From an uncultured Pirellula sp. (GTDB lineage Bacteria; Planctomycetota; Planctomycetia; Pirellulales; Pirellulaceae): 64,000 nt of DNA. Of this stretch, positions 46,093-61,551 are shown piece by piece. The stretch is from NCBI GenBank assembly GCA_903858115.1, contig CAIOHR010000380.1:186001-250000 (forward strand), read 5' to 3'. How positions within the stretch are numbered: position 1 is the first letter of the stretch; each line of letters starts with the position of its first letter. The translations under genes were made by a program, and so were the position numbers. The notes under the pieces were generated by a model. That model saw only the letters and a program-made list of their open reading frames with translations. It was not told the DNA's origin and searched no databases.

Positions 46093-46446
46093 CAACAAAT
46101 TGCACCCCCAAAGTGAATGGAAGAGTTTTCCGAGTCGCCCCCATCGGTCCCGGTTCGCTCCGCCGGTACTGTTGAAAGATTCAATGGCGATATCGAATGT
46201 TCAACGTGGTAGAGTACACGGGCTTCGCGCAGATAGCGTTAAGCTTCTTTGCCATCGAGGTCCTCGAACATTACGTCATTGATGGACGCTTCATGATCGA
46301 TCCACTGTGGGCTTCTCTTGCAGTTGCCGGTGGAACACAGTATTGAATATTGCGATCGCTGAAGCGTTACACCGAGATCCTTGACGTACAAGGCAGATAA
46401 AGAGCCAGTGTTTTCAGGATGAACCGCGTTGAAATTTTGCCATCGG
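46093..46446. other. Intergenic gap without recognisable gene
   Basis: About 350 bases between the ABC permease stop and the PAP2-like lipoprotein. No coding frame with convincing composition, no palindrome stronger than chance and no repeat family member was found. The promoter of the downstream gene is presumably in the last 100 bases. Confidence 0.5.
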
Positions 46447-47445
46447 ATGCACAACTTGAAGTCAACTGCAATTGCCTGCATTCTAGTCTGCTTCTTCTTT
46501 CTCGGATGTGCTCAAACAAAGTCTTTAAAGATCGGGGCTCCCACGACTAGCGAGAAAGAAAGCTATAAGGTTGTTTCGGTCTCACAGTCGTTGAATTTTG
46601 CACCATCGACCAGCATGGGAAAACGCGACTTAAATGCGACGGAAAGTGAACCCGAGCATGAATGGCTTTCCACGGAACATCGATTCGAACTTGGTGATCA
46701 GCTTGAGTCGATCGATGGTCCCAGGCCGCCAGATTCCTTGGGTGAGAAACTTCTCCGTGATCAAATGAGTTTTTACTCAAAAGAGTCGGGTGCTAATTTA
46801 CTGATGGCGTTTGGCGTGGGAGCATTGTTGGCAAACTCGGAAATGGACGGGAAGATCCAGAAGCATTTTCAAGTATCCGTGCGTGGAGGAAGGAGTGACG
46901 AATGGTTTGAGTTTTTGCGCGCGAACAAAGAGATCGGTAATGGAGTCTATACATTGCCAATCTTCGGCTCTTTGTGGTTAGCAAACACGTACATCGATGG
47001 CCCGGAAAGCTTTGAAACGGCTGGCGTCTGGGGAGAACGTTCGTTGCGAGCATTCTTGGTAGGAGCAGGTCCAGTTGTGATAGGACAGCGTTTGACGGGT
47101 GGATCACGGCCTGGTGAAACGGGGAATGGGTCCGATTGGTTTCCTTTTCGCGACAACAACGGCGTGAGCGGGCATGCCTTTATGTCTTCACTCCCGTTCA
47201 TCACCGCTGCCAAGATGACGGATGACCCTGTTCGCAAAACGCTGTTTTATGGAGGATCTTTGATCGGCCCCTTATCGAGAGTGAATGACAACGCTCACTA
47301 TCCATCGCAAATCGGACTTGGGTGGGCAATGGCATTCGTTGCCGCAAGTGCGGTACAGCACACTGACACAGGGAAACGAGGCTGGAGTATTGTACCCAAT
47401 TCATCACTAAACTCCTCTGGACTAGCTTTTCAATATCGTTGGTAG
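46447..47445 (+). CDS. PAP2-superfamily phosphatase-like lipoprotein
   Basis: A 332-residue protein (start 46447, MHNLKSTAIACILVCFFFLG followed by Cys, a loose lipobox ending in LGC). The C-terminal half has PAP2 landmarks: RLTGGSRPGE for the first motif, VSGHAFMSSLPFI for the PSGH motif, and SRVNDNAHYPSQIGLGW for SRxxxxxHxxxD. The last position is Gln instead of Asp, and the first motif is weak, so catalysis may be altered. Lipid phosphate or glycan-lipid phosphatases of this fold work at the membrane. It lies 270 bases before the Dab cluster on the same strand, in an ordinary intergenic gap. Confidence 0.72.
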   Translation: MHNLKSTAIACILVCFFFLGCAQTKSLKIGAPTTSEKESYKVVSVSQSLNFAPSTSMGKRDLNATESEPEHEWLSTEHRFELGDQLESIDGPRPPDSLGEKLLRDQMSFYSKESGANLLMAFGVGALLANSEMDGKIQKHFQVSVRGGRSDEWFEFLRANKEIGNGVYTLPIFGSLWLANTYIDGPESFETAGVWGERSLRAFLVGAGPVVIGQRLTGGSRPGETGNGSDWFPFRDNNGVSGHAFMSSLPFITAAKMTDDPVRKTLFYGGSLIGPLSRVNDNAHYPSQIGLGWAMAFVAASAVQHTDTGKRGWSIVPNSSLNSSGLAFQYRW

Positions 47446-47715: not shown

Positions 47716-50700
47716 ATGATTGACACCCCATTGAACGCAACTGCGCCTGGAGACTCTGCGAGCCAGGATTTTTCGTCCATTCGCCACGCGATAGAACATG
47801 CAAAACACTATTTGCCGAGTCAGGGGCCGATTGCAGTTTTCATCCACCATAACACACTTCATGCTTTCGAAAGTCTGCCTTTTGACGAAGCCGTAATCGA
47901 CGGATTGCGGACTTATGGATCCCAGCCATACTGGCAAGAATCACGTTATCGCGACGAGATGTCTCGCGACAGGATTCAGCTCCAAGATTTACAAATAGTA
48001 TTGAAACGTGACCTCGGCGAGTCTGGCCTGCGGGAGATTGCGATTGGAACAACACGTTTCGATTTGCGCTACAACATGCTTCGTTACTCGCTTTCGGCTG
48101 GTAGCAATTCTGAGATTCGTTGGCTCATGGCGCAGAGCGATGCATTGGAGCAGTTCCAACCAGGCGTCGAACCGCAAGCGAGAAATGCGATTCTCGAAGC
48201 GACAAGGCACTGGATCATGCGTGATTTGCGATTGCATCTTGGCGATAGTTCGGCTGCCATCCCACCTGCCATTCGTTCTGTCTTTGATGAATTCCCTATT
48301 CGATCGATTGAATCTTGGAGCGATTCCACTTGGCAGCGTGTAACTCTCCAACTGCTATGGCGCATCTGTCAAAATGGAGTTCGAGGAACTCGAAAAATTG
48401 GGCATACTTTTCCTTCGATGTCGCGGCATCGTGATATTCTTTTGCGCCTTTGCAATTTTGATTGTGATGCTCAAGTTCATGAATTGCTGATTCGCTTTAC
48501 CTCCGCATTCCTGGATCAAGGGTTTGCTGGTTGGTCTATTCCTCAACGCGACGAGGGTTTCTACAAGTGTTTCTTATCCCTGTTTGGTGAGCCTTCCCCC
48601 TGGGCGGAGAACTGGCTACGCCCGATGCAAAAGCTCATCGCGGAGGAATGCAAACTGGTCCATTCACCGATGGAGTCGATTGCGAATTCGTTGAACAAGC
48701 TCGGTGTACCTGAAGAAAAACGAGATGATTTCATCAAGAAGACTCTTCTTGCACTACCAGGATGGACCGGCATGGTTCAACAGATGGCTTCCAATGCGAG
48801 CTGGACATTGCATCCCGCTCCGCATGACTCGTTAGAGGAATTCCTAGCAGTTCGACTGCTGCTCGATCGACTTTCCGCGACCCATTGCATACGAGAGTAC
48901 TTGCCTGAATTGGAGAAGTTAGCTGGCTTGTTCGAAATCGACGTTGTCGAACACGATGATCTTCGAGACCAATCGGTGCAACAGATTGCTTTTCATGTTT
49001 TTCAGCTGGCCCAGCGATTGCATTGGTCTCCGAGTGTTCTTCATGCTTGGACTGCAAGCGAGTGGCAAACAATCGTCGAGGAGATCGGGTTATTTGACGA
49101 TCTAGAACGGAGGAGAGTTCTTCATTTAGCCTATGAACATCGTTATCGGACGCAGATTTTGGATGCGGTCTCAGAACACTCGAAGCTACCGTTAAATATC
49201 CCCGCGAACGTTTCTTTCCAAGTCATAACATGTATTGATGATCGAGAAGAATCCTTCCGTCGTCATTTGGAAGAATTAGACCCCAATGTGGAAACGTTTG
49301 GTGCGGCGGGGTTCTTTTCGGTTCCGATGTATTTTCGCGGTGCTGCGGATGCGCATTTTATCCCGCTATGCCCGGTGATCATGGTTCCGAAAAACTATGT
49401 GGAAGAGGTCGGGCCTCTTTCTGCCAAACAAGCCGAAGATCGCCGAGCGCAAACGCGTCTCTTGATTGGGAAAGCATCCAAGTCGTTTCATCGAAGTAGC
49501 CGCAGTCTATTCAGCGGCGTATTGACCTCGATTTTTGGTTCGCTCAATGCATTCCCGTTGGTCGCACGAGTGTTGTTTCCGAGACTCACCGCTCAAATTC
49601 GATCAACGTTAGGAACGTTGGTTCGGCCTACCATTGCGACGCAATTGCGATTGGAGCGAGGAAGCGATTCTGTGGTAACAGAAAAGGGGGCGGAAGGATT
49701 TACGCTTGTCGAGATGGCCAACATGATTGAACGATTAACAGGCGATCTCGGCATCCAACAACGATTTGCTCCGCTGATCATTGTTTTTGGACACGGTTCT
49801 TCGAGCCTCAATAATCCTCACGAGTCCGCCTACAATTGTGGCGCTTGCGGCGGAGGGCAAGGTGGTCCGAATGCTAGGGCTGTGGCTCAAATGGCCAACG
49901 ATCCCCGCGTCAGAGCAATCCTCCGAGAACGAGGAGTCGTGATTCCAGATACGACGCTTTTCGTCGGAGGATTCCACAATACATGCGACGATTCAACTTC
50001 TTACTTTGATATAGATCGAATCCCGCCGAATCACGCTGAAAAGTTTGTGGCAGCGAGCGAGATCGTTGACAAGGCACGCAAGAGGAATGCCCATGAACGC
50101 TCGCGCCGCTTCTATTCGTTGGATATGAGATGTAGCGACGAGGAAGCTATCCGGCACGTGGAGCGACGTTCCGAAGATTTAGCTCAGGTTCGACCGGAGT
50201 ACAATCATGCAACGAACGCAGCGTGTTTCGTTGGACGTAGAGGACGCACGCGTGGTCTGTTCATGGATCGGAGATGTTTTCTTACGTCTTACGACCCAAC
50301 GACCGACGACGAAGTTACGACCATCCTAAATCGCATCATGCAAGCAGTAATACCGGTATGCGGAGGTATTTCCTTAGAGTATTACTTTTCGACGGTAGAT
50401 AATGTTGGCTACGGTTGTGGAACAAAGCTACCGCACAATATCACATCATTGATTGGCGTCATGGAGGGTGCCGCCAGCGATCTGCGAACTGGTTTGAGCC
50501 AACAGATGGTGGAGATTCATGAACCAGTCAGAATCCTCTTTATCGTCGAAGCCAAGCCTGAATCCATTGTGTCCATCATGGATCGAAATCCGCTGATCAG
50601 CACTTATATTCGAAATCATTGGGTACAAATCGCTACGCTGGATCCTCACTCCACCCGGATTCATCTGTTTCAGGGGGATCAGTTTGAACTCTATGAACCG

Positions 50701-50835
50701 GGCCCGCATGTTTTACCTACAGTTCAGGCTTCGCTCGATTGGTATCGCGGTTGGCGACAACCGCTAGGTTTTTCCAAGGTGGAGCCTCAGGCTGCTTTAT
50801 CGAGACCTAAGTCAGTGATGGAGGTTGGTTCTTGA
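47716..50835 (+). CDS. dabA: DabA-type inorganic carbon transporter subunit (DUF2309)
   Basis: A 1039-residue DUF2309 protein, the beta-carbonic-anhydrase-like subunit of the DAB pump that captures CO2 as bicarbonate in the cytoplasm. The zinc site is complete: C506 and D508 in TCIDDREESF, H693 in FGHGSSSLNNPHES and C708 in YNCGACGG; the H-to-C spacing (15) and C-to-D spacing (2) equal those of Halothiobacillus DabA. Other landmarks are PSQGPIAVFIHHNTLHAFE, AAGFFSVPMYFRG, NARAVAQMANDPRVRAILR and FMDRRCFLTSYDPT. It has no signal peptide. Its TGA overlaps the TTG start of the next gene, so translation is coupled to DabB. Heterotrophs also use DAB pumps to supply bicarbonate for carboxylations; no Rubisco or carboxysome genes are in view. 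Confidence 0.93.
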   Translation: MIDTPLNATAPGDSASQDFSSIRHAIEHAKHYLPSQGPIAVFIHHNTLHAFESLPFDEAVIDGLRTYGSQPYWQESRYRDEMSRDRIQLQDLQIVLKRDLGESGLREIAIGTTRFDLRYNMLRYSLSAGSNSEIRWLMAQSDALEQFQPGVEPQARNAILEATRHWIMRDLRLHLGDSSAAIPPAIRSVFDEFPIRSIESWSDSTWQRVTLQLLWRICQNGVRGTRKIGHTFPSMSRHRDILLRLCNFDCDAQVHELLIRFTSAFLDQGFAGWSIPQRDEGFYKCFLSLFGEPSPWAENWLRPMQKLIAEECKLVHSPMESIANSLNKLGVPEEKRDDFIKKTLLALPGWTGMVQQMASNASWTLHPAPHDSLEEFLAVRLLLDRLSATHCIREYLPELEKLAGLFEIDVVEHDDLRDQSVQQIAFHVFQLAQRLHWSPSVLHAWTASEWQTIVEEIGLFDDLERRRVLHLAYEHRYRTQILDAVSEHSKLPLNIPANVSFQVITCIDDREESFRRHLEELDPNVETFGAAGFFSVPMYFRGAADAHFIPLCPVIMVPKNYVEEVGPLSAKQAEDRRAQTRLLIGKASKSFHRSSRSLFSGVLTSIFGSLNAFPLVARVLFPRLTAQIRSTLGTLVRPTIATQLRLERGSDSVVTEKGAEGFTLVEMANMIERLTGDLGIQQRFAPLIIVFGHGSSSLNNPHESAYNCGACGGGQGGPNARAVAQMANDPRVRAILRERGVVIPDTTLFVGGFHNTCDDSTSYFDIDRIPPNHAEKFVAASEIVDKARKRNAHERSRRFYSLDMRCSDEEAIRHVERRSEDLAQVRPEYNHATNAACFVGRRGRTRGLFMDRRCFLTSYDPTTDDEVTTILNRIMQAVIPVCGGISLEYYFSTVDNVGYGCGTKLPHNITSLIGVMEGAASDLRTGLSQQMVEIHEPVRILFIVEAKPESIVSIMDRNPLISTYIRNHWVQIATLDPHSTRIHLFQGDQFELYEPGPHVLPTVQASLDWYRGWRQPLGFSKVEPQAALSRPKSVMEVGS

Positions 50836-52220
50836 ACGTTGCATTATGGACTCAAATCTTTGGTGTTGTCGCCGTTTTATGTCCAGCCATACTGCTTTTG
50901 CTTTTTGGGTTTCGACTGCTTATCAATAGACCAATGAGCGAGTTAGTTGTCGGTCGTTGTTTGAAAGTAGCGGTCGGAATGAGTTTGGTCAGTTCTTTGG
51001 TTGTTTTAGTGATCATGCTGGCGACCGGTTCGCGCCGAGAGTTCATCGACTTTGGCGATATGGTCGCAATCCATGATGTCCATTTCCACTTTCATATGAA
51101 GTTTGTTTTTGATCGGCTAAGTGTGCCGATGGTCATTCTTTCCTTCGTCCTGTGCGGAACCGTGGGCTCGTTTGGGTTGAGCTATCTTCACCGTGATGCT
51201 GGCTTTCAACGTTTCTTCGCCTGCTTTGCAATGTTCTTGACAGGCATGACCTTTGCGTCCCTTGCCGGAACGATAGAAACGTTGTTTCTTGGCTGGGAGC
51301 TCGTTGGACTCTCCTCTGCCCTTTTGGTTGCATACTTCCATGAACGTTCCGCGCCGGTTGCTAACGGATTGCGAGTTTGGTCAGTGTATCGACTTGCGGA
51401 TGCAGCCTTTTTGGCTGCTGCGATTGCACTGCATCATCAGACGGGCGGAGGAGATTTCGGTGTTTTGATGGGAGATGAACCCTGGCCAGCAGGCACCGCT
51501 TCTCTAAGCAGCGGTACATCACTGCTTGTTGGTACATTTCTTTTGATTGCGGCCGCCGGGAAATCTGGATTGGTGCCATTTTCCGGATGGCTTCCACGTG
51601 CCATGGAAGGCCCTACACCGTCGAGTGCCATCTTTTACGGGGCGCTGTCTGTGCACCTTGGTGCTTTCCTTTTGCTTCGAGTTAGCCCAATCCTCAATCA
51701 GTCGACATTGCTTTGTGCCATGGTCGTCACTCTAGGATTTGTATCCGCCGTGTTTGCGGCTTTAGCAGGACGTGTACAAACGGATATCAAGAGCGCGCTC
51801 GCATTCGCTTCCCTTACCCAAGTGAGCATCATCGTCGTTGAAATTGGATTGGGCCTTCAATATTTGGCTCTCGTCCACTTGATCGGTCATGCTTGTATGC
51901 GTTCCTTACAATTGCTTCGCGCCCCAACGCTGCTTCGAGATTACAAAACGATGGAGAATGCGATCGGGGAATCGCTTGATCATGAATTGCCTAAGATCTT
52001 TGCTTGGCTGGGTGTTTCTACGCAACGAAGACTTTACCGAGGGGCGATGGAGCGAGGATACATGGACTCCATCTTGGATGAAATCATAGTGAATCCTCTC
52101 TGTCGATTGTTCTCGACCTTCAATCGCTGGGAGCAATCATGGACCCGTTGGTTGAACGGATCGAAGAAGCAGTCTTTGTCTACGCCATTGCCGCTGGGAT
52201 CAAAATTGAACGATGAATGA
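50832..52220 (+). CDS. dabB: DabB-type NuoL-like membrane subunit
   Basis: A 462-residue polytopic protein of the proton-pumping antiporter-like family (NuoL/MrpA-type). The TTG start at 50832 overlaps the dabA stop. The key pump residues of the first half are visible: Glu in ETLFLGWELVGLSSALLV and Lys in AAAGKSGLVPFSGWLP, then GPTPSSAIFYGALSVH. In the second half DIKSALAFASLTQVSI and HLIGHACMRSLQLL follow, where the usual Lys of the HAFFKALLF motif is Arg. In characterised DAB systems this subunit couples proton flow to DabA. It overlaps the next Nuo-like gene by 8 bases. Confidence 0.88.
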   Translation: MNVALWTQIFGVVAVLCPAILLLLFGFRLLINRPMSELVVGRCLKVAVGMSLVSSLVVLVIMLATGSRREFIDFGDMVAIHDVHFHFHMKFVFDRLSVPMVILSFVLCGTVGSFGLSYLHRDAGFQRFFACFAMFLTGMTFASLAGTIETLFLGWELVGLSSALLVAYFHERSAPVANGLRVWSVYRLADAAFLAAAIALHHQTGGGDFGVLMGDEPWPAGTASLSSGTSLLVGTFLLIAAAGKSGLVPFSGWLPRAMEGPTPSSAIFYGALSVHLGAFLLLRVSPILNQSTLLCAMVVTLGFVSAVFAALAGRVQTDIKSALAFASLTQVSIIVVEIGLGLQYLALVHLIGHACMRSLQLLRAPTLLRDYKTMENAIGESLDHELPKIFAWLGVSTQRRLYRGAMERGYMDSILDEIIVNPLCRLFSTFNRWEQSWTRWLNGSKKQSLSTPLPLGSKLNDE

Positions 52221-53625
52221 ATTGCATTTGCCATGGCTTGAGCTTTGCATACTCTTCCCTGCGTTGGCTGCATTATGGGTAGGGCGCATTCGCGATGAAT
52301 CTCAATCACGTTCCGCGGGACTCGCGGCGGCAGGCATAACCCTGTTTCTGGCGATTGCAGGTTGGATCGATTTTGAATCCCTTTTCTCGTTTGAAGCTCA
52401 CGACCATTGGGATGTTGTCAAGTATCTGATCGGACGAGATGAATTTGTCATCGATAAACTCAACGCTCCACTTTTGCCGCTGACGGCGTTGCTTTACTTT
52501 TTGACGATGCTCGCGACACCAAGAGTCAAACTCGGCAAGTTTTCGTTTGGACTGGCATTATTCTCGCTTTCATCGACGCTCGCGGTGCTGAGTTGCAAGG
52601 AAACCTGGATGCTCTTAGCGTTGATCGGGGTCAATGCAATTCCTATGTACATTGATTTGCGGAGTCGTCAGAAACCGACGCGTGTCTTTGTCTTTCACAT
52701 CGGTTTATCGATGCTTTTGATGATCGCTGGAGCGGCAATCTATCAATCGTCGACGACGGACGCGGGAAGAGGTACTGGTATCGTGATGTTGGTCGCTGCT
52801 GTATTGATTCGAAGCGGTTGCTCTCCATTGCATTGCTGGATCGCGGACTTATTTGAACAAGCGGCTTTCGGGAATGCGCTTCTGTTTATAACTCCTCTCG
52901 TCGGCGCTTATGCAACGATGAGATTGGTATTACCAATCGCGCCGGATTGGGCTTTGCGAAGTATTGCAGTTCTCTCATTGGCAACGGCTCTTTACGCGTC
53001 ATGCATGACGTTAGTTCAAGTCGATTCTCGACGGTTTTTTTGCTTTCTCTTCCTTAGTCACTCAGCGTTAGTACTCGTTGGATTGGAGACAACAACACCG
53101 ATCGGACTCACAGGAGCTTTGTGCGTCTGGTTTTCGGTTGCTCTGTCCCTAACAGGCCTTGGGCTTACCCTACGATGCGTTGAAGCAAGAACGGGGCCGC
53201 TTGCATTGGATCGGTATCATGGAATGTATTCTCACATGCCCCATTTGGCAGGTTTTTTTCTTTTGACAGGTTTGTCAGCGATCGGATTTCCCTGCACAAT
53301 CGGTTTCACGGGTACGGAGTTACTCGTCGAAGCTGCCCTAGACTTCTCACCGTGGGTAGGAGGAGTTGTTGTTCTATCCACTGCGCTGAATAGCATTGCC
53401 ATTCTCCGCGCTTACTTTCGCATTTTCACAGGAACCACTCATCACTCAACCATCCCGCTTGGGACGATCCCCTCGGAACGTATTGCCATTATGACATTCT
53501 CGATACTGTTGATCGGGGCAGGTTTGTGGCCTCAGCCGGGTGTTCACTCGCGATTTGATGCCGCTATCGAATTGCTAGGCCATCGTGATGTCACGAAACA
53601 GCCAGCAGTAGAGTCAGCTAACTGA
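52213..53625 (+). CDS. Second Nuo-like membrane subunit of the Dab cluster
   Basis: A 470-residue polytopic protein related to NuoM/NuoL antiporter-like subunits. Segments such as FLFLSHSALVLVGLET, LAGFFLLTGLSAIGFPCTIG and FTGTELLVEAAL match the C-terminal half of NuoM-type proteins. At the place of the pump Glu (WEL.LVPMY in NuoM) it has IGVNAIPMY, so the Glu appears to be Gly. Where NuoM has a conserved Lys before the PxHxW motif it reads LIRSGCSPLHCWIADLFEQA, with Arg. It may be a structural or regulatory partner of DabB rather than a pump. It is co-translated with dabB (ATG overlaps the stop). The described minimal DAB has one DabB only. Confidence 0.72.
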   Translation: MNELHLPWLELCILFPALAALWVGRIRDESQSRSAGLAAAGITLFLAIAGWIDFESLFSFEAHDHWDVVKYLIGRDEFVIDKLNAPLLPLTALLYFLTMLATPRVKLGKFSFGLALFSLSSTLAVLSCKETWMLLALIGVNAIPMYIDLRSRQKPTRVFVFHIGLSMLLMIAGAAIYQSSTTDAGRGTGIVMLVAAVLIRSGCSPLHCWIADLFEQAAFGNALLFITPLVGAYATMRLVLPIAPDWALRSIAVLSLATALYASCMTLVQVDSRRFFCFLFLSHSALVLVGLETTTPIGLTGALCVWFSVALSLTGLGLTLRCVEARTGPLALDRYHGMYSHMPHLAGFFLLTGLSAIGFPCTIGFTGTELLVEAALDFSPWVGGVVVLSTALNSIAILRAYFRIFTGTTHHSTIPLGTIPSERIAIMTFSILLIGAGLWPQPGVHSRFDAAIELLGHRDVTKQPAVESAN

Positions 53626-53722
53626 TTTGTAATGCGAACACATTCGCGAAAAGTCGATAATGCTTTTATACTCGGATGCCGAATCAAATGTCTAACTGTG
53701 TCTTTCTTTGCGAGTGCTACTC

Positions 53723-55729
53723 ATGTCAACCGAATCAAGCGCCACTGCGGGAACCATTAACCAATTGCCACCAGTCGGTAATTTTGCTGGTTTCTTGAAT
53801 TATTTTCGATACGATGCGCTTAGCGGTTTCCTTGTATTTCTAATCGCATTACCTCTTTGCTTAGGAATCTCGTCCGCTTCCGAGTTTCCAATAGTGGCTG
53901 GTGTTTTGACAGCCATTGTTGGCGCGATCCTTACGCCACTCATCTCCAATAGCGAACTAACCATCAAAGGACCGGCGGCAGGATTGATTGTAATCTCCTT
54001 GGGAGCAATTCAAGAAATGCGAACCATCTATGGTAATGAGGCAGGATACGCAGCCGTGTTGGCCATCGGTGTTGTCGCGGGGGTAATTCAAATCGCATTC
54101 GGTCTGTTAAGAAGTGGGATCATCGGTGAGTTCTTTCCCTCGGCTGTTGTGCACGGTATGTTGGCTGCGATCGGAGTCATAATCATTGGAAAGCAAACAC
54201 ACACTTTGCTCGGCGTGCAACCAGAAAGTCACGAGCCACTAGGATTGCTGGCGGAAATCCCTAAGTCGATTTGGAACATGGATCCTTACGTGGCGTTCAT
54301 CGGGGGACTCAGCCTAGCACTTTTATTCGGTATGACTTTCTTCAAAAACAAAACCATCAAGAAGATTCCAGTACCCATGCTGGTCATGTTGATGGCTATC
54401 CCTCTGGGGATGTATTTTGAATTAGGAAAACCACACAAGTATACTTTCGGAGGTGTCGAGCACTTTATCTCGGAGAAGGCGCTCGTAAATATCCCGTCAA
54501 ATTTGCTTGCAGCGATTACGTTTCCGAATTTTGCATCCTTGCAAACGTTTGCGGCATGGAAGTGGATCTTCATGTATGCGTTGATCGGTTCACTTGAGTC
54601 GATTCTAAGTGCTAAGGCGGTCGATATGCTCGATCCATACCGCCGAAAATCGAATCTCAATCGCGATTTACTTGCAGTCGGCATTGGCAATACCGTGAGT
54701 TCGGCAATCGGCGGTCTTCCCATGATCTCGGAGATTGTTCGTAGCAAGGCGAATATCGATAACGGTGCCAAGACCCGGTTTGCTAATTTCTGGCATGGAT
54801 TATTCTTGCTAGTAAGCGTCTCGTTTTTGGCAAATTTCATTCACCTAATTCCCATGACTGCCCTGGCAGCCATGTTGATCTTTACCGGTTTTCGATTGGC
54901 ATCTCCGAACGAGTTTCTCAAAGTATATAAAACGGGCCGCGAGCAACTCTTCATTTTCGTGTTCACTATGCTTATGGTGCTGGCAACTGACTTGCTGATT
55001 GGCATCATGCTCGGCATCATCGCAAAGTTGGTGATTCATACGGCGAACGGAGTTCCACTGTCATCGCTATTCAAGCCTTTTCTGGATGTTCAGACGCTGG
55101 AGGACGGTAGTTGCGTCGTATTCGCAAGTAAGTCTGCTGTTTTTTCGAATTGGATCCCGTTTCGTCGACAAATAGAACACCTTGGTTTTGTACAAAGGTC
55201 GAACGTTACCGTTGATTTGTCCGGAACAAAATTCGTGGATCATACCGTCATGGAAAAGCTCCACGAACTACAAGAGGATTTTACGCACGAAGGCCTGAAG
55301 TTGGATATCATTGGTCTAGATAGTCATCGGCAAATGAGTTCTTCCAGCTTGGCGGCAAGAAAACAACTCGGTGTTCCGTTGATGCATCGTTTAACGTTTA
55401 CGCTCCCAGTCAATCAGGAATCTGCAATCACTTCCCTTTTGAGCCAGGTAGAACTTGCAGATTCGGTGAAGAGTAATTGGTTATCCGCTCTTCCAAACTC
55501 ACTTCACGCCAATCTGTTTAGGATAGAAATCTTGATTTCTCGCAACAAAAGCCAACGCTTAATTGAAGCTGTACGACGTGAGATGCCGCACTTGATTGGC
55601 ATGACGATGCTAATTGAGACTGTTGGTGTTTTACAGTGTGGAGCGGAATCGTGGCATTCCAGTATGGTGGACTCGGGAACTGCGATTAGCAATGTTCGTG
55701 ACGATTTTGTTAAAAGCAGCATCAAATAG
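53723..55729 (+). CDS. SulP/SLC26 family anion transporter with STAS domain and extended tail
   Basis: A 668-residue transporter; the ATG at 53723 (MSTESSATAG) is preferred to a TTG 15 bases earlier. The membrane domain begins DALSGFLVFLIALPLCLGIS and SNSELTIKGPAAGLIVISLG, typical of SulP, and contains SAIGGLPMISEIVRSKANID. The STAS domain is at about 445-555 (NVTVDLSGTKFVDHTVMEKL, with His where a Ser/Thr often occurs). About 110 residues follow, including LFRIEILISRNKSQRLIEAV and GMTMLIETVG, which resemble the first half of a ferredoxin-like/PII-type fold; this is tentative. Bacterial SulP members next to carbonic-anhydrase-like genes commonly move bicarbonate. The gap from the Dab genes is 97 bases. 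Confidence 0.85.
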   Translation: MSTESSATAGTINQLPPVGNFAGFLNYFRYDALSGFLVFLIALPLCLGISSASEFPIVAGVLTAIVGAILTPLISNSELTIKGPAAGLIVISLGAIQEMRTIYGNEAGYAAVLAIGVVAGVIQIAFGLLRSGIIGEFFPSAVVHGMLAAIGVIIIGKQTHTLLGVQPESHEPLGLLAEIPKSIWNMDPYVAFIGGLSLALLFGMTFFKNKTIKKIPVPMLVMLMAIPLGMYFELGKPHKYTFGGVEHFISEKALVNIPSNLLAAITFPNFASLQTFAAWKWIFMYALIGSLESILSAKAVDMLDPYRRKSNLNRDLLAVGIGNTVSSAIGGLPMISEIVRSKANIDNGAKTRFANFWHGLFLLVSVSFLANFIHLIPMTALAAMLIFTGFRLASPNEFLKVYKTGREQLFIFVFTMLMVLATDLLIGIMLGIIAKLVIHTANGVPLSSLFKPFLDVQTLEDGSCVVFASKSAVFSNWIPFRRQIEHLGFVQRSNVTVDLSGTKFVDHTVMEKLHELQEDFTHEGLKLDIIGLDSHRQMSSSSLAARKQLGVPLMHRLTFTLPVNQESAITSLLSQVELADSVKSNWLSALPNSLHANLFRIEILISRNKSQRLIEAVRREMPHLIGMTMLIETVGVLQCGAESWHSSMVDSGTAISNVRDDFVKSSIK

Positions 55730-55743
55730 GAAAGAGGCAACGA

Positions 55744-56415
55744 TTGAAAGTCTTGGTTGTCGAAGACGACGCGGTTCTGGGAAAAGCACTTCTGACCGGT
55801 TTAACTGAATCTGGCCATGCATGCACATGGTCTCAAAACGGGCTCGATGCTGTTCGGCTCGGTAGCGAACAAGTGTTCGATGTGGCGGTTCTCGATCTCA
55901 TGCTTCCTGATTTGCCCGGATTGGAAGTACTCAAGGGGTTACGAAGTTATCTCCCCAGTCTGCCGATCCTGATACTGAGCGCGATGGGGACTGTAGATGA
56001 GAGAGTGCATGGCTTGAACTCTGGCGCTGACGACTATTTGGTCAAGCCGTTTGCGTTTGCGGAATTGATTGCAAGGCTATCTGTACTTGAACGTCGCAAA
56101 GGGCCGACGGTCGAGACTTGTTTGCGCGCGGGCTCTCTGTTCATCGAGTTGACTAGCCGTCGGGTAACTCGCAACGAGGTCGAAATAGACCTAACTCCGA
56201 CCGAATACAAACTGCTGGAATTCTTGATGCGCAATGCGAATCAAGTTGTCACTCGGCGTATGTTGTGTGAACATCTTTGGGAATCAAACTGGGAAGGGGT
56301 GACCAACGTGATCGAAGTTCATATCAATCGCTTAAGAAACAAAATCAAAAAAGGATTCGATACGGATCTGATCCATACCATTCGAGGCAGTGGATATGAG
56401 CTTCGCGCGGATTAA
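55744..56415 (+). CDS. OmpR/PhoB family response regulator
   Basis: A 223-residue two-domain regulator with a TTG start behind AGGAAAGAGG. The receiver has VVEDDAVLG (acidic pair), D51 in VLDLMLPDLPG as the phosphoacceptor, and a late Lys in DDYLVKPFAFAEL. The winged-helix output domain holds EIDLTPTEYKLLEFLMRNAN, VTRRMLCEHLWESNWEGVTN and HINRLRNKIKKGFD. It begins 14 bases after the SulP gene, which suggests that the regulator belongs to the inorganic-carbon unit. The kinase gene overlaps its 3' end by 26 bases. Confidence 0.93.
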   Translation: MKVLVVEDDAVLGKALLTGLTESGHACTWSQNGLDAVRLGSEQVFDVAVLDLMLPDLPGLEVLKGLRSYLPSLPILILSAMGTVDERVHGLNSGADDYLVKPFAFAELIARLSVLERRKGPTVETCLRAGSLFIELTSRRVTRNEVEIDLTPTEYKLLEFLMRNANQVVTRRMLCEHLWESNWEGVTNVIEVHINRLRNKIKKGFDTDLIHTIRGSGYELRAD

Positions 56416-57889
56416 ATCGACCTTTCGATCGTTGCGATTTCGATTAATGCTTCTCAACGCTATCGTCGTGCTTCTCGCATCGATGGGCACCCTTATCGGG
56501 CTTCGAGCAGGTATTCGATTCGCATTGGTACATGAACTGGATCAGATTCTCGAAGAAGATCTCGATGAGATCGAATTGGATTTGGCCGCGGCTGGCGACC
56601 CCAGTTCGGCTGCATTGTTTTCTCAATTGGACAGAAAAGCTCGCGGCCACATTCAGCATCGCTGGTTCGTACTCATCCTTGCAGCGAGCCCCAATGAACC
56701 GAACCCGAGCGCTGACGCAAAACCGCGTGTTGATTCAGAACGGAGTTTGTCGTCCATCGATGACAATCGTGTTTGGCTGAGTGTGAATGTTCCTGCGGAG
56801 ATTCGTTTGCCAGACGTTTTCGCCAACGAGCCAATCACCCTGGGAGGCTATCGCGTTCTCGACCGGGTCGGTCAGTCTCCCCTGTCTTCATCCGTCGGTA
56901 TTCGAGTTGGCGCATCCATGAGCCTTATCGAGCGAGACCTAACCCTGATCGATCGGATCATCGGTATAGCATTTGGACTAGGGTTGGTCATCGCGCCCCT
57001 TGGAGGATATTGGCTGGCAGGGCGTGTGACTCGTCCGTTGAGTACGATCATCAGTACGGCAGAGCGACTTCGCCCTGAGAAATTGAATGAACGATTGTCG
57101 TTACGCGGAACGGGCGATGAGCTGGATACTCTTTCGCATACGCTCAACATGTTGTTGGATAGAATCGCCAATTTCTTGGAAAAGAGGAAGGACTTTCTCG
57201 CGAACGCAGCACATGAACTTCGTACTCCCCTTGCTGCCCTGCGGAGCACTGCAGAAGTAGCTTTGCGATCGCCAAGGACATCTCTCGAGTATCAAGAGTT
57301 GATAGGGACCATCGTCGAAGAGTGTCAGTCGCTAGAAGTGTTAGTGAATCAATTGCTTCTTCTAGCTGAAACGGAATCCGAAACGGAAACAATATTGCTT
57401 TCTGGCGAATCGATCGATCTCGGCGAATTGATCAAAAAATCCTACGAGATGTTTATCGGTGTAGCAGAAAGTCGATCGATCGATCTTCGATTGCAAATTG
57501 TTCAAGTCCTCAGGGTCAAAGGCAATCGACATCACTTACGACAAGTGGTAAACAACCTGATCGACAATGCATTGAAATTTACACCCGAGGGAGGCAACGT
57601 TTCATTAACCATCGACAAAGCCGCTGGCGAGTCAAAAGCGATCTTTACAGTGCAAGATGCCGGAGTCGGTATCGCGGCGGAGGAAAAACCTCAGTTGTTC
57701 GATCGATTCTATCGCGGCGAACGCTCTAGGCGTAGAGATTCATTAACGCGAGGCACAGGGCTGGGGCTGAGCATTTGCCGTGCTATCGTGGATGGGCATG
57801 GCGGATCGATAACGGTCACCAGTCAAGTGGGCCAAGGGAGCAGCTTTCAAGTGTGGCTACCACTTTTCGACGAGCGAGTTAATGCATAA
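56390..57889 (+). CDS. Membrane sensor histidine kinase
   Basis: A 499-residue kinase that overlaps the response regulator. An alternative ATG is at 56396. TM1 is at 18-40 (LMLLNAIVVLLASMGTLIGL), TM2 at about 190-210 (IIGIAFGLGLVIAPLGGYWL), enclosing a sensor domain of about 150 residues rich in charged residues and with VWLSVNVPAEIRL. HAMP follows, then HisKA with the phosphorylated H275 in AHELRTPLAALR, and the ATPase lobe: NLIDNALKFTPEGG (N box), QDAGVGIAAEE (G1), RGTGLGLSICRAIVDGHGG (G2). The ligand is unknown; a bicarbonate/CO2 or anion cue is an inference from the gene order. Confidence 0.93.
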   Translation: MDMSFARIKSTFRSLRFRLMLLNAIVVLLASMGTLIGLRAGIRFALVHELDQILEEDLDEIELDLAAAGDPSSAALFSQLDRKARGHIQHRWFVLILAASPNEPNPSADAKPRVDSERSLSSIDDNRVWLSVNVPAEIRLPDVFANEPITLGGYRVLDRVGQSPLSSSVGIRVGASMSLIERDLTLIDRIIGIAFGLGLVIAPLGGYWLAGRVTRPLSTIISTAERLRPEKLNERLSLRGTGDELDTLSHTLNMLLDRIANFLEKRKDFLANAAHELRTPLAALRSTAEVALRSPRTSLEYQELIGTIVEECQSLEVLVNQLLLLAETESETETILLSGESIDLGELIKKSYEMFIGVAESRSIDLRLQIVQVLRVKGNRHHLRQVVNNLIDNALKFTPEGGNVSLTIDKAAGESKAIFTVQDAGVGIAAEEKPQLFDRFYRGERSRRRDSLTRGTGLGLSICRAIVDGHGGSITVTSQVGQGSSFQVWLPLFDERVNA

Positions 57890-58024
57890 GAAGGTCGCTT
57901 ATCTTTTCCTTCCCAATTCGCTCATGCTAGCTAAGTGTTTTTCTGCGGAAACGCGCCTCGAGTACCGATCAAGCTATTGGACCATGGAAATGCAGGTTGT
58001 GGAATGAAATCAGGATCGAGTATC

Positions 58025-59509
58025 ATGCGAACGCAAAGCTTCCTTATTGCAGCCTGCTTGATTTCAGTATTCTCCTCAATGGCAGCTGCGCAGGAAGGAT
58101 ACATTCAGGACCCCGCGGGGTTAGGCATGAATGAATCAAAACCTCAACCCATCTACACGATCGCGGTCCCATACGACGAACCGAATGACATCCAAGAACT
58201 AACCCTTCGCCTGCAAACGTTAGAGGACAAAGAGCGTCAAACGGCAGAGGAACTGAAGAAACTCCAAGACGCAAAAAAAACTAGCGCTGAAAAGCCGAAG
58301 CTTCCCAGTGTTGCCATCAACGGCGTATTCCAGGCGGATGCGGTGTCCTTCAATCAAGGTGAAACAAGCAAAGAAGCGTACGGGCGAATCGATGGTGGAG
58401 CCGACTTTCGACGGGCTAGACTAAGTGCAAAAGGTGCCGTCTCTGATCGGATGGATTACTTCATGCAGATGGATTTTGGTTTTTTCGGACGTCCGACATT
58501 CACCGATGTATGGGCCGACTTTAAGGACGTAGGAAGTCTCGGTACGGTTCGCGTAGGCCAATGGAAACAACCGTTCGGCTTGGAGACTGTCAGCAGTTTT
58601 CGCTATACGACGTTCATGGAACGCTCATCGCTTTTCCAAGCGTTCACTCCATTTCGCCATATTGGAGTTGGTTTCTACAATCATAACGACAATCTCGACT
58701 GGACTTGGGCAGCATCTTATTTTCGAACCGGACAAGATCAATTCGGCGGATCGCTGAGCACCGACGGTGGCAACGGTGGGGCTGGGCGATTGACACATTT
58801 GCTTTGGCACAATGGCCCGAAGGGCGAAGACTACTTGCACGTGGGTGCAGGATACTTTCTGAACTCCCCACCCAACGATCGTATTCGATTCCGAAGTATT
58901 CCTGAAATTTTTGTCGGTGAGTTTGTGGTTCCAACAGGAGTCCCACTTGGGACGAGCGGACAACCCGTACCCGATGTCGCCAATGGTACGCCGTTCTTTG
59001 TGGATACCGGTACGCTTGCCGGAACAAACTTGACACAAACGATTGGTTTGGAGTCGCTATGGGTACGGGGCCCTCTATCGTGGCAGAGTGAAGCGATGGG
59101 GTGCTTTGTGGATACGAGTCAAAATGGAAACGCGTTTCTCAATGGCGCATACTCACAAGTCGGATGGTTTCTAACTGGCGAACATCGCCCGTACGATCGA
59201 AAATCTGGAGCAATCGATCGTGTAATACCGTTCCACAGTGTTTCCAAGTGCGGAGGTGGTTGGGGAGCTTGGGAGATTGCTGGACGTTGGTCCTATCTGG
59301 ATGTTACCGACGGACAGATCATTGGCGGTTTGATGCAGAATATGACTGTGGGTCTCAATTGGTATGTGAACCCGAACTGCAAATGCGTTTTCAATTACAT
59401 TCACTCGTGGGCCGATTCGCGACCTATTCGCAATGGAGTTATCCAATCGAATGACTTCATCAGTTCGCAAACGGATGCATTCGGATTGCGCTGCCAGCTA
59501 GACTTTTAG
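58025..59509 (+). CDS. O/P-type outer membrane porin
   Basis: A 494-residue exported beta-barrel protein with leader RTQSFLIAACLISVFSSMAA; ATGs at 58004 and 57935 are possible but less good. After the leader is a short coiled coil (ELTLRLQTLEDKERQTAEEL), as in planctomycete and Bacteroidetes OprP-like porins, then the barrel with ADFRRARLSAKGAVSDRMDY and MDFGFFGRPTFTDVWADFKD. The chain ends in aromatic Phe (LRCQLDF), as outer membrane proteins do. OprP/OprO porins are anion selective, which fits a bicarbonate or phosphate import role. It follows the kinase by about 135 bases and ends at a palindromic repeat. Confidence 0.82.
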   Translation: MRTQSFLIAACLISVFSSMAAAQEGYIQDPAGLGMNESKPQPIYTIAVPYDEPNDIQELTLRLQTLEDKERQTAEELKKLQDAKKTSAEKPKLPSVAINGVFQADAVSFNQGETSKEAYGRIDGGADFRRARLSAKGAVSDRMDYFMQMDFGFFGRPTFTDVWADFKDVGSLGTVRVGQWKQPFGLETVSSFRYTTFMERSSLFQAFTPFRHIGVGFYNHNDNLDWTWAASYFRTGQDQFGGSLSTDGGNGGAGRLTHLLWHNGPKGEDYLHVGAGYFLNSPPNDRIRFRSIPEIFVGEFVVPTGVPLGTSGQPVPDVANGTPFFVDTGTLAGTNLTQTIGLESLWVRGPLSWQSEAMGCFVDTSQNGNAFLNGAYSQVGWFLTGEHRPYDRKSGAIDRVIPFHSVSKCGGGWGAWEIAGRWSYLDVTDGQIIGGLMQNMTVGLNWYVNPNCKCVFNYIHSWADSRPIRNGVIQSNDFISSQTDAFGLRCQLDF

Positions 59510-60060: not shown

Positions 60061-61551
60061 CTAGCGAGTTACAATTTCCTTCAACCGCGAAGCAGCTTCT
60101 ATCCAAGCATCCGAATTCCTGGGTTCATAAATCTGAATGTCGGGCATCGATCGCATCCAACTACGAACCTCGACGATGGAATTGAATCGTCCCATGGCGA
60201 CGCATTGTGCTGCGACATTGCCAAGTGCCGTGGCTTCGACGGGGCCTGCGACGACGCGGCGATTGCACGCGTCCGACGTCATTTGACAAAGCAGTTTGTT
60301 CTGGACCCCGCCACCAACGATGTGGATCGTCTCAATCGAATATCCAATCAAGGATTCCAGCCCATGCAAGCACTCGCGATATCGCAACGCCAAACTCTCC
60401 AACGTCGCGCGCGCCAACCCTGCATCGTCCGGGATGGACTGTTGTGTCTTTCGTAGATACTCTTCGACAGCGGACAACATATCATCTGGAGCGATGAACA
60501 TGGCGTGCTCGAGATCAATGAACGATTGAAGCGGTTTAGCCTGCGATGCTATCCGCGTGAGCTCGTCCCAGGAATACTCTTTTCCACGTCTCTTCCACGA
60601 TGCACGAAGCTGTTGAAATGGCCACAAGCCGGCAATGTTCTTCAACAGTCGAACGCTACCGTCAGCGCCACCTTCATTCGTGAAGTTAAGTTCCAAACAA
60701 CGATCACTAAGAACGGGTGCAGCGAGTTCGACGCCCATCAAGGACCATGTCCCACTGCTGATGTAGCACCAATTCGGTTTCGCTTCAGCGAATCCCGACG
60801 CGGGGACTGCGATCACCGCCGAGCCCGTGTCGTGCGTTGCGGGGACAATCACTTCGCAACCGTCGTGCAAACCGGTTCTTTGTCGCAGTTTTGCTTTGAC
60901 ACTTCCAAGCTTCGTTCCTGGCTGGATCGGATCTAGAAACATTTTGCTCGGAATATGGAGAGCGTCCAAGATTTTGGTGGACCATTTCTTCGTCGTTGGA
61001 TCAAGACACTGCGTAGTGCTCGCGTTGGTGTATTCGTTTGTTTTTTCGCCTGTGAGTTGCCAATTCAAGAAATCAGGCACCATCAAAAACTGTTCTGCCA
61101 TATCCAACATCGGCGAACCTTCGAGACGCATGCTCCAGAGTTGATAGAGCGTATTGATCTCCATGAATTGAATGCCACTGTTCCGAAAGATATCTGTCTT
61201 CGAGATCTTGTCGAACGCCTTGAGCATCGTACCGTTGGTTCGAGCATCCCTATAGCAGAAACCGGGACCGAGCAAATCATCTTGTTTATCCAACAGCACG
61301 TAATCGACGCCCCATGTATCCACTCCGACACTTCGGATGCGAGTTCCGAATTGCTGGGCAGCCAGACTTAGCCCCCGTTCTATCTGTTGCCATAGACCGA
61401 GCAAATCCCAATGGAGTCTCTTCCCAACATGGACAGGGGAATTCTCAAAGCGATGAACATCAACCAATTGAATCCTATCGCTCAAAATCTCAGCCGCGAT
61501 CACTCGACCACTCGAAGCACCTAAGTCAACGGCCAATACGATGTCAGACAT
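60061..61551 (-). CDS. rhaB: Rhamnulokinase
   Basis: A 496-residue FGGY-family kinase: VLAVDLGASSGRVIAAEI (phosphate 1), RSVGVDTWGVDYVLLD with the catalytic-region Asp, FCYRDARTNGTMLKAFDKIS, ATHDTGSAVIAVPA (phosphate 2), CYISSGTWSLMGVELAAPVL and HIVGGGVQNKLLCQMTSDAC (adenosine motif). The DTWGVDYVLLD and SSGTWSL segments are characteristic of rhamnulokinase rather than glycerol or xylulose kinase. It phosphorylates L-rhamnulose in rhamnose catabolism, consistent with the polysaccharide-degrading neighbourhood. RhaA and RhaD are not adjacent. Confidence 0.93.
   Translation of the reverse strand: MSDIVLAVDLGASSGRVIAAEILSDRIQLVDVHRFENSPVHVGKRLHWDLLGLWQQIERGLSLAAQQFGTRIRSVGVDTWGVDYVLLDKQDDLLGPGFCYRDARTNGTMLKAFDKISKTDIFRNSGIQFMEINTLYQLWSMRLEGSPMLDMAEQFLMVPDFLNWQLTGEKTNEYTNASTTQCLDPTTKKWSTKILDALHIPSKMFLDPIQPGTKLGSVKAKLRQRTGLHDGCEVIVPATHDTGSAVIAVPASGFAEAKPNWCYISSGTWSLMGVELAAPVLSDRCLELNFTNEGGADGSVRLLKNIAGLWPFQQLRASWKRRGKEYSWDELTRIASQAKPLQSFIDLEHAMFIAPDDMLSAVEEYLRKTQQSIPDDAGLARATLESLALRYRECLHGLESLIGYSIETIHIVGGGVQNKLLCQMTSDACNRRVVAGPVEATALGNVAAQCVAMGRFNSIVEVRSWMRSMPDIQIYEPRNSDAWIEAASRLKEIVTR

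Follow-up and report, generated by a model that had tools for sequence, protein, structure and literature searches.

We analysed a window of 64,000 nucleotides from the genome of an uncultured Pirellula sp., in which seven genes follow one another on the forward strand, all where the original prediction had placed them (ORF calls, Pfam). The first, dabA (47716-50835), encodes a class II DabA of 1039 aa (PF10070, E 1.9e-227). It is followed by B1 (50832-52220), which starts with TTG and encodes a NuoL/DabB-like protein of 462 aa (Proton_antipo_M 1.1e-37, Proton_antipo_N 5.7e-8), and by B2 (52213-53625), encoding a putative NuoM-like protein of 470 aa (Proton_antipo_M 1.2e-22). The overlap of dabA by Nuo-type genes that had been reported is indeed there, with 4 bp shared by dabA and B1 and 8 bp by B1 and B2. 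After a gap of 82 bp comes the gene of a SulP-family anion transporter (53708-55729; 673 aa, Sulfate_transp PF00916 8.7e-56) and, 14 bp further, those of an OmpR-type response regulator (55744-56415; Pfam and NCBIfam models) and a sensor histidine kinase (56390-57889; HAMP, HisKA and HATPase). The last two overlap by 26 bp if the GTG start of the kinase is right; this start codon is uncertain and further in-frame starts are present. A porin O/P, presumably of the outer membrane (57935-59509; PF07396 7.1e-48), lies 45 bp beyond; it is followed, on the opposite strand, by a rhamnulokinase-like gene (60061-61551). Start codons in relatives are those of the ORF calls, and some ORF lengths are overestimated. 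Upstream of dabA, a stretch conserved in alignment with two other loci, L071 and L062 (47592-47651, forward strand), is a candidate promoter or regulator region; the scan gave no sigma-70-like promoter match in it, and no direct repeats were found upstream of dabA. The sigma-70 scan returned 7 promoters against a shuffle mean of 13.2, and the terminator scan 19 against 16.5 (sd 4.0).

DabA scores 757.7 bits against PF10070, over the curated cut-off of 25, and its zinc site is complete (C506/D508/R510/H693/C708), with C, H and C ligands and an Asp-Arg dyad. The four residues already named for this site (C506, D508, H693, C708) are invariant in a 25-sequence alignment, as is R510, the aligned counterpart of Arg355 in the solved enzyme; all 187 aligned DabA rows, those of the window and H. 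neapolitanus among them, have the full C/D/R/H/C set. In the solved H. neapolitanus DAB2 pump (DabA2-DabB2, PDB 9rd0), which shares this PF10070 enzyme and a NuoL-like subunit with TM1-11 path residues, Glu444 of the DabA finger is described as completing the proton path, next to a single 551-aa DabB that extends through TM12-15 and lacks the NuoL TM5 Glu (PMC13144422). In contrast, the window has the arrangement A-B1-B2, and its DabA finger (about residues 587-635, aligned with H. neapolitanus DabA2) has no equivalent of Glu444, the column holding Ser. It also carries an extra stretch at about residues 160-228 that is typical of three-subunit DabA.

B1, the NuoL-like DabB-type gene adjoining dabA, matches both the DabB2 chain 9rd0_B (E 4.5e-22) and NuoL chains. 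It bears E156 at the position of the NuoL TM5 Glu, together with R187, D190, K244, Y269, K320, A326, H349, H353 and R357. Among B frames of 381-999 aa scoring above 200 bits, to which the tallies of DabB2 columns apply, the TM5 Glu is found in 114/114 B1 vs 0/22 canonical DabB. At DabB2 columns 151, 260 and 347, B1 proteins have Glu (114/114), Tyr (114/114) and Arg (113/114, with one gap), and canonical DabB a nonacidic residue, His and Lys in 22/22; the window has E156, Y269 and R357, unlike DAB2-type DabB with its H260 and K347. By hydropathy, the hydrophobic segments of the window B1 end at residue 356, leaving it short and devoid of the TM12-15 found in DabB2. In DAB2, activity is lost with E444A/Q and impaired with H260A and with K347A, and the growth yield falls by half with I151E (PMC13144422), so that class II departs from DAB2 at functional sites.

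B2 scores 130.5 bits against TIGR01972 (cut-off 263.8) and is predicted to have a NuoM-like fold, its AlphaFold2 model, a single chain like all structure predictions here, having a pLDDT of 89.4 and a Foldseek match to 8e9g_M (TM 0.86). Its E369 follows the GFPxTiGF break of TM12. An acid (E/D) occupies this column in 109 of the 110 proteins covering it, and its counterpart in the genome's own NuoL is the Asp in an SKD motif that we take for the Lys399-Asp400 pair. No alignment was obtained for the half in which NuoM has its TM5 Glu. On plasmids, B2 matched 27 records, all below 60% identity and none covering 80% of the query. The changed proton-path residues in DabA, B1 and B2, about which the original prediction said nothing, are the more unusual feature of the locus.

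All DAB sequences compared are from Planctomycetota except those of H. neapolitanus DAB2 and of nine plasmid loci (read among 123 matched records, 40 of them listed). The 80 named loci, which include Singulisphaera acidiphila and Lacipirellula limnantheis, are the best 80 of at least 565 confirmed matches, so the sample is biased to the long type; of the 188 loci L031-L218, 182 have a DabA of at least 700 aa, and these merge to 167 at 97% identity. In this biased sample, long DabA, B1 and B2 occur together at 109 of the 167 distinct DabA loci, and gene ends give the order A-B1-B2 at every one of them. The conserved unit is the first three genes, a long DabA with NuoL-like B1 and NuoM-like B2. 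The finger acid is absent from 109/109 three-subunit loci, and the finger Glu is present at 19/20 canonical loci. In a DabA tree (quick search without bootstrap, 80 chosen rows), three-subunit DabA forms a separate branch, class II being divided from class I with 100% SH-aLRT when the finger columns are left out. At loci with a single long B (about 625-808 aa), the finger Glu is absent in 16/16, and all 20 long B proteins carry an acid at the B2 E369 column, near the C-terminus; 11 of the 17 single-B genomes tested have the hydrazine synthase alpha domain, an anammox marker. The locus classes were assigned by script: of the 17 A-long-B loci, L191 is an artefact of ORF calling at the end of a contig and groups in the tree with DabA of three-subunit loci, and of the seven contig-cut loci, L218 resembles the long-B kind.

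There is no settled account of how DABs link the proton gradient to CO2 hydration, and the DAB2 structure points to an enzyme-subunit Glu as the residue that completes the channel (PMC13144422). We favour the reading, with a probability of about 60%, that dabA, B1 and B2 together specify a vectorial carbonic anhydrase of the DAB family, class II, which sits in the membrane and is driven by the PMF. DabA would hydrate CO2 at its zinc site on the cytoplasmic side and the proton path would follow the plan of the NuoL-NuoM pair in complex I, in that B1 (TM1-11, TM5 Glu restored) would form the cytoplasmic half-channel and B2 would provide the acid at the TM12 break (E369), which canonical DAB takes from finger Glu444, with HCO3- released to the cytoplasm. 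We infer that the three products form a complex, and the three-subunit DAB, with the DAB2 residue pattern reversed, can be read as another way of wiring CO2 hydration to the PMF. The likeness extends to Mrp antiporter subunits, though B1 and B2 are encoded with DabA and B1 has no helices after TM11. Several observations stand against this assignment. The DabA model, a single chain, gave no Foldseek match in the PDB at E 0.001 or below, and its finger has a pLDDT below 50. The B2 acid lies one residue past the NuoM Glu in the alignment, and the NuoM TM7 Lys position is R200 in B2. Column 316 is mixed in B1 (Ala 103, Ser 10, Gly 1), the ion-pair Arg is retained in only 6/20 long B, and the C-termini of long B give weak matches to the B2 profile, or none in the group of about 665 aa. 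Three loci with long-type DabA (L112, L131, L146) show no B1/B2 within about 10 kb on each side. Two changes on the tree suffice for the loss of the finger Glu, so its association with the three-subunit layout amounts to a single deep event and one exception rather than to many independent events; the exception is L151 and L152, where the finger stretch has no Glu (FVGP) and no B2 was seen.

An extra PF00361 gene in a DAB is already known: H. neapolitanus DAB1 is reported to have such an interstitial gene and to rescue CA-free E. coli (PMC7714395), and the original prediction, which held that DAB pumps use DabA plus one DabB, was to that extent incomplete. The locus might therefore be a planctomycete form of DAB1 (DabA1, extra PF00361 gene, DabB1), with B2 as an accessory and protons passing through the DabA finger. 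The 1037-aa DabA beside the carboxysome genes of Nitrobacter hamburgensis (L229) is indeed long as well, but that operon, which has the DAB1 layout, is ordered B-X-A and has canonical residues, keeping the finger Glu (VTVEAVG) and columns H, S and K in B, and its X has 253 aa and no B2-profile match at E 10 or below. The window has neither the finger Glu nor a small X subunit, and the tree places L153 and L156, planctomycete loci whose canonical B is long, with class I. We consider a DAB1-like pump improbable on this evidence, H. neapolitanus DAB1 being known to us by description only. It is also unlikely, if less so, that the proteins act as a bicarbonate transporter coupled to cations or protons, or as a pump that can run both ways, and not as a CO2 hydrase working in one direction. 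There, the restored TM5 Glu and the ion pairs (E/R/D/K of NuoL in 114/114 B1) would make B1/B2 a true antiporter pair, SulP neighbours would fit, and use of a sodium gradient has been argued for MpsAB in work that PMC13144422 cites. However, the catalytic zinc site is fully kept and B2 differs from NuoM at channel positions. MpsAB of Staphylococcus aureus, likened here by description only, is a DAB homologue in a heterotroph, and those descriptions, so far as accessible, mention no second MpsA.

The four downstream genes recur less regularly. SulP (at least 300 bits, within 4.5 kb) accompanies 36 of the 75 three-subunit loci with enough flank, mostly downstream on the strand of the core but in other positions too; the response regulator (at least 240 bits) is found at 14/75, mostly upstream and divergent, and the porin at 6/75. 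With SulP at about half of the loci, the regulator at about a fifth and the porin at few, we rejected the idea of a module in which all seven genes are conserved: in the gene-order comparison set beforehand as a check, the A-B1-B2 core holds and the porin fails. The two-component regulator and the porin are lineage extras, and SulP is a frequent neighbour. The regulator scores best with copper/silver and heavy-metal models and the kinase with a heavy-metal sensor, all below cut-offs; the sequence of the DAB core and SulP supports a locus of inorganic-carbon type, but the signal need not be CO2. SulP itself reaches 110.4 bits against NCBIfam BicA (cut-off 880) and also falls below the DauA and sulP cut-offs. 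It is possible, though we lean the other way, that what SulP imports is sulfate or an organic anion, and that it, the metal-type two-component system and the porin are chance neighbours of the DAB core; these scores and the many loci devoid of SulP would agree with this, but in the same phylum SulP adjoins 0/17 canonical and 1/12 A-long-B loci. In the favoured reading, SulP, the two-component pair and the porin are additions in this lineage to a class II DAB, so that external anions, HCO3- perhaps among them, are probably handled here too.

A further suggestion from the residue patterns is more tentative: a second vectorial CA class, so far in Planctomycetota, may have replaced the DabA finger as proton gate by a complex-I-like antiporter pair (B1 TM5 Glu facing the B2 TM12 acid), with proton coupling (stoichiometry or reversibility) unlike that of DAB2; in anammox-marker genomes, the second acid would lie in cis in one long B. 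The literature searched, with few subscription papers in it, gave no account of a DAB lacking the finger Glu or having a NuoM-like B2. Three-subunit DABs, a natural class with no finger Glu but with both the complex I gate residue lost in DAB2 and the B2 acid, offer residue swaps with which to test the channel idea. If true, class II wiring would give the PF10070 genes of many planctomycetes and anammox-marker genomes a specific mechanism, and would advise caution in carrying DAB2 results over to these genes.

The rest of the genome bears on three other readings, which we rejected. There is no RuBisCO large-subunit match, which speaks against a DAB within a RuBisCO-based CCM, and two beta-CA-type matches (one partial) and one alpha-CA match argue that the DAB is not the only carbonic anhydrase of the cell. 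Nor are B1 and B2 misplaced complex I genes, as a separate Nuo-type set is encoded elsewhere in this genome, on contig C7, where NuoL-type and NuoM-type frames lie together with a further antiporter-type frame that we take for NuoN.

The planctomycete assembly containing the window comprises 7.9 Mb in 445 contigs. An ORF and Pfam check placed all seven genes of the original prediction (dabA, B1, B2, a SulP transporter, a response regulator, a histidine kinase and an O/P porin) at 47716-59509 on the forward strand, with overlaps or short gaps. DabA covers the PF10070 model over its full length, carries the zinc-site residues that had been read in it (C506, D508, H693 and C708) as well as R510, and has its best named match, among the matches listed, in Pirellula sp. 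CoA8_C32 (locus L071, 91% identity). Profile and sequence comparison identified B1 as NuoL/DabB-like and B2 as NuoM-like. Because a separate Nuo-type set sits on contig C7 of the same genome, where frames exceeded the cut-offs of the NuoL and NuoM models together with a third frame that we take to be NuoN, B1 and B2 are extra genes. A stretch upstream of dabA is conserved across three genomes; a PAP2-superfamily gene (46429-47445) lies 270 bp upstream on the same strand.

PF10070 was found in 36 of 60 relatives and in 61 of 392 genomes of a phylum-wide sample. Surroundings were read for 188 loci, and after near-duplicates were merged, 167 DabA loci were classed by script. In this set, which includes the best 80 of 565 matches and is thereby biased to long DabA, 109 loci show the three-subunit order A-B1-B2, 20 the canonical order B-A and 17 a DabA followed by one long B (16 without L191, an ORF artefact); 14 are unclear and 7 contig-cut, one of these (L218) probably of the long-B kind. 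The phylum sample taken by itself gave 26 three-subunit, 17 A-long-B (with L191), 14 canonical, 5 unclear and 1 contig-cut locus, six others having been merged away or being too short. Some genomes combine a canonical with a three-subunit system: 7/53 of those classed in this sample and 5/34 of the relatives' genomes read. For three unclear loci with a long DabA (L112, L131 and L146, two of them from a single assembly, RYN_441), no B1 or B2 was recognised within ~10 kb on either side, in sequence free of masked bases, and their partners, if any, must be located elsewhere.

The proposal that the seven genes form one regulated module was right in its observation and partly right in its interpretation: the A-B1-B2 core is conserved and SulP is a frequent partner, whereas regulation and porin are lineage-specific. 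Among loci with at least 3 kb on both sides, SulP (at least 300 bits, within 4.5 kb) accompanies 36/75 three-subunit, 0/17 canonical and 1/12 A-long-B loci. The response regulator (240 bits), kinase (280 bits) and porin (150 bits) neighbour 14/75, 12/75 and 6/75 three-subunit loci, respectively, and none of the 17 canonical or 12 A-long-B loci. Among loci read, the exact seven-gene order was found just in L063/L071, taken as one genome; another locus (L062) has all seven genes with the porin upstream. Metal-type systems are the nearest models of the window regulator pair, and both the SulP substrate and the regulation of the locus are putative.

More interesting than the seven-gene module is that the DAB proton path appears, from sequence, to have a second residue wiring. 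In the parts consulted of the DAB2 structure paper, dated 2026 (PMC13144422), DabB2 TM4-11 are similar to the NuoL channel, TM12-14 are displaced and the DabA2 finger occupies the vacated place, with Glu444 in the role of NuoL Lys399/Asp400, while the position of the NuoL TM5 Glu is Ile151. The same parts report that Glu444 substitutions abolish activity, that H260A and K347A impair it and that I151E halves the growth yield (PMC13144422). Canonical planctomycete DABs agree with DAB2 at these sites: the finger Glu aligned in 19/20 loci, and all 22 distinct DabB have a nonacidic 151, H260, S316 and K347. Three-subunit DABs depart from DAB2 at the same sites, the finger stretch being without acid in 109/109 loci, and the 114 distinct B1 having Glu at 151 (114), Tyr at 260 (114) and Arg at 347 (113, one gap); at column 316, Ala (103) prevails over Ser (10) and Gly (1). 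By hydropathy, window B1 lacks hydrophobic segments beyond residue 356. In B2, the column of E369 holds Glu in 102 proteins, Asp in 7 and Gly in 1 (L181, a locus with an interrupted DabA), 8 proteins being without coverage. In profile alignment with the NuoL and NuoM of the same genome, E369 falls on the NuoL SKD-motif Asp and one residue past the NuoM Glu. The helix of the B2 model (pLDDT 89.4; top Foldseek match the NuoM chain 8e9g_M, TM 0.86) is interrupted at residues 357-362, shortly before E369. Between adjacent antiporter subunits of complex I, the TM5 Glu of one lies opposite TM12 of the other. The TM5 Glu ion pair is described near the subunit interface in the structure paper, as far as consulted (PMC13144422). 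The B1 TM5 Glu and the B2 TM12 acid would together provide what a complex-I-like facing antiporter pair requires; complex formation, coupling and direction of the three-subunit DAB are predicted from the genes.

Comparison beyond the phylum covered nine DAB loci on plasmids of Alpha-, Beta- and Gammaproteobacteria, Actinomycetota and Haloarchaea; the finger Glu and H260/S316/K347 were present in 9/9. The nearest known DAB with an extra PF00361 gene is DAB1, for which the consulted parts of two papers mention an unnamed interstitial PF00361 gene (PMC7714395) and a third, small transmembrane protein (PMC13144422). One plasmid locus, on Nitrobacter hamburgensis plasmid 1 beside carboxysome genes, follows the DAB1 layout, with B, X and A of 565, 253 and 1037 aa, respectively. 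This operon retains the finger Glu and the planctomycete variant is therefore not of the Nitrobacter type, a separation from DAB1 that is drawn on this one DAB1-layout operon. The Nitrobacter B-X-A operon, with a P-II gene, stands in two tandem copies upstream of the carboxysome genes.

In a DabA tree of 80 rows, built by a quick method without bootstrap and with the finger columns omitted, a single branch (100% SH-aLRT) splits 25 class I rows (DAB2-type, including H. neapolitanus) from 55 class II rows (without finger Glu). Only two changes of the finger Glu are needed, and the link between finger loss and B1/B2 therefore comes down to one deep event, retained since; the second change is the exception, two sisters within class I (L151 and L152) with FVGP replacing Glu. 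At two loci (L153 and L156), the neighbour of a finger-Glu DabA is a DabB of 848-883 aa that carries an antiporter-like C-terminal extension, perhaps a DAB1-like B-X fusion.

The 16 merged A-long-B loci encode a DabA and then a single B of ~625-808 aa, with the finger Glu in none (0/16); in three of them, an Asp follows a few residues later. Twenty long B proteins from 17 loci (one of which, L216, has a split DabA) all keep Glu, Tyr and Arg in the respective columns and all carry an acid in the E369 column close to the C-terminus, but only 6/20 retain the ion-pair Arg. Their C-terminal end matches the B2 profile well in six proteins (L195-L198, L200 and L214) and weakly or not at all in the others. 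An anammox marker, the alpha domain of hydrazine synthase, was found in 11/17 long-B genomes tested. Three loci (L196-L198, in genomes G108, G253 and G181) hold two adjoining, divergent class II DabA-long-B pairs that differ in finger residue (H and I) and in B length (653 and 665 aa); two of these three genomes (G181 and G253) have the hydrazine synthase domain.

Since a profile search of the window genome found no RuBisCO large-subunit match, and one alpha-CA match is present together with two beta-CA-type matches, of which one is partial and the other falls in a 773-aa reading frame, the DAB would by inference supply bicarbonate in a heterotroph rather than serve a carboxysome CCM. The beta-CA domain in the 773-aa open frame lies at C342:31377-31862, and frames of similar length match in many relatives; this frame perhaps encodes a SulP-carbonic anhydrase fusion.
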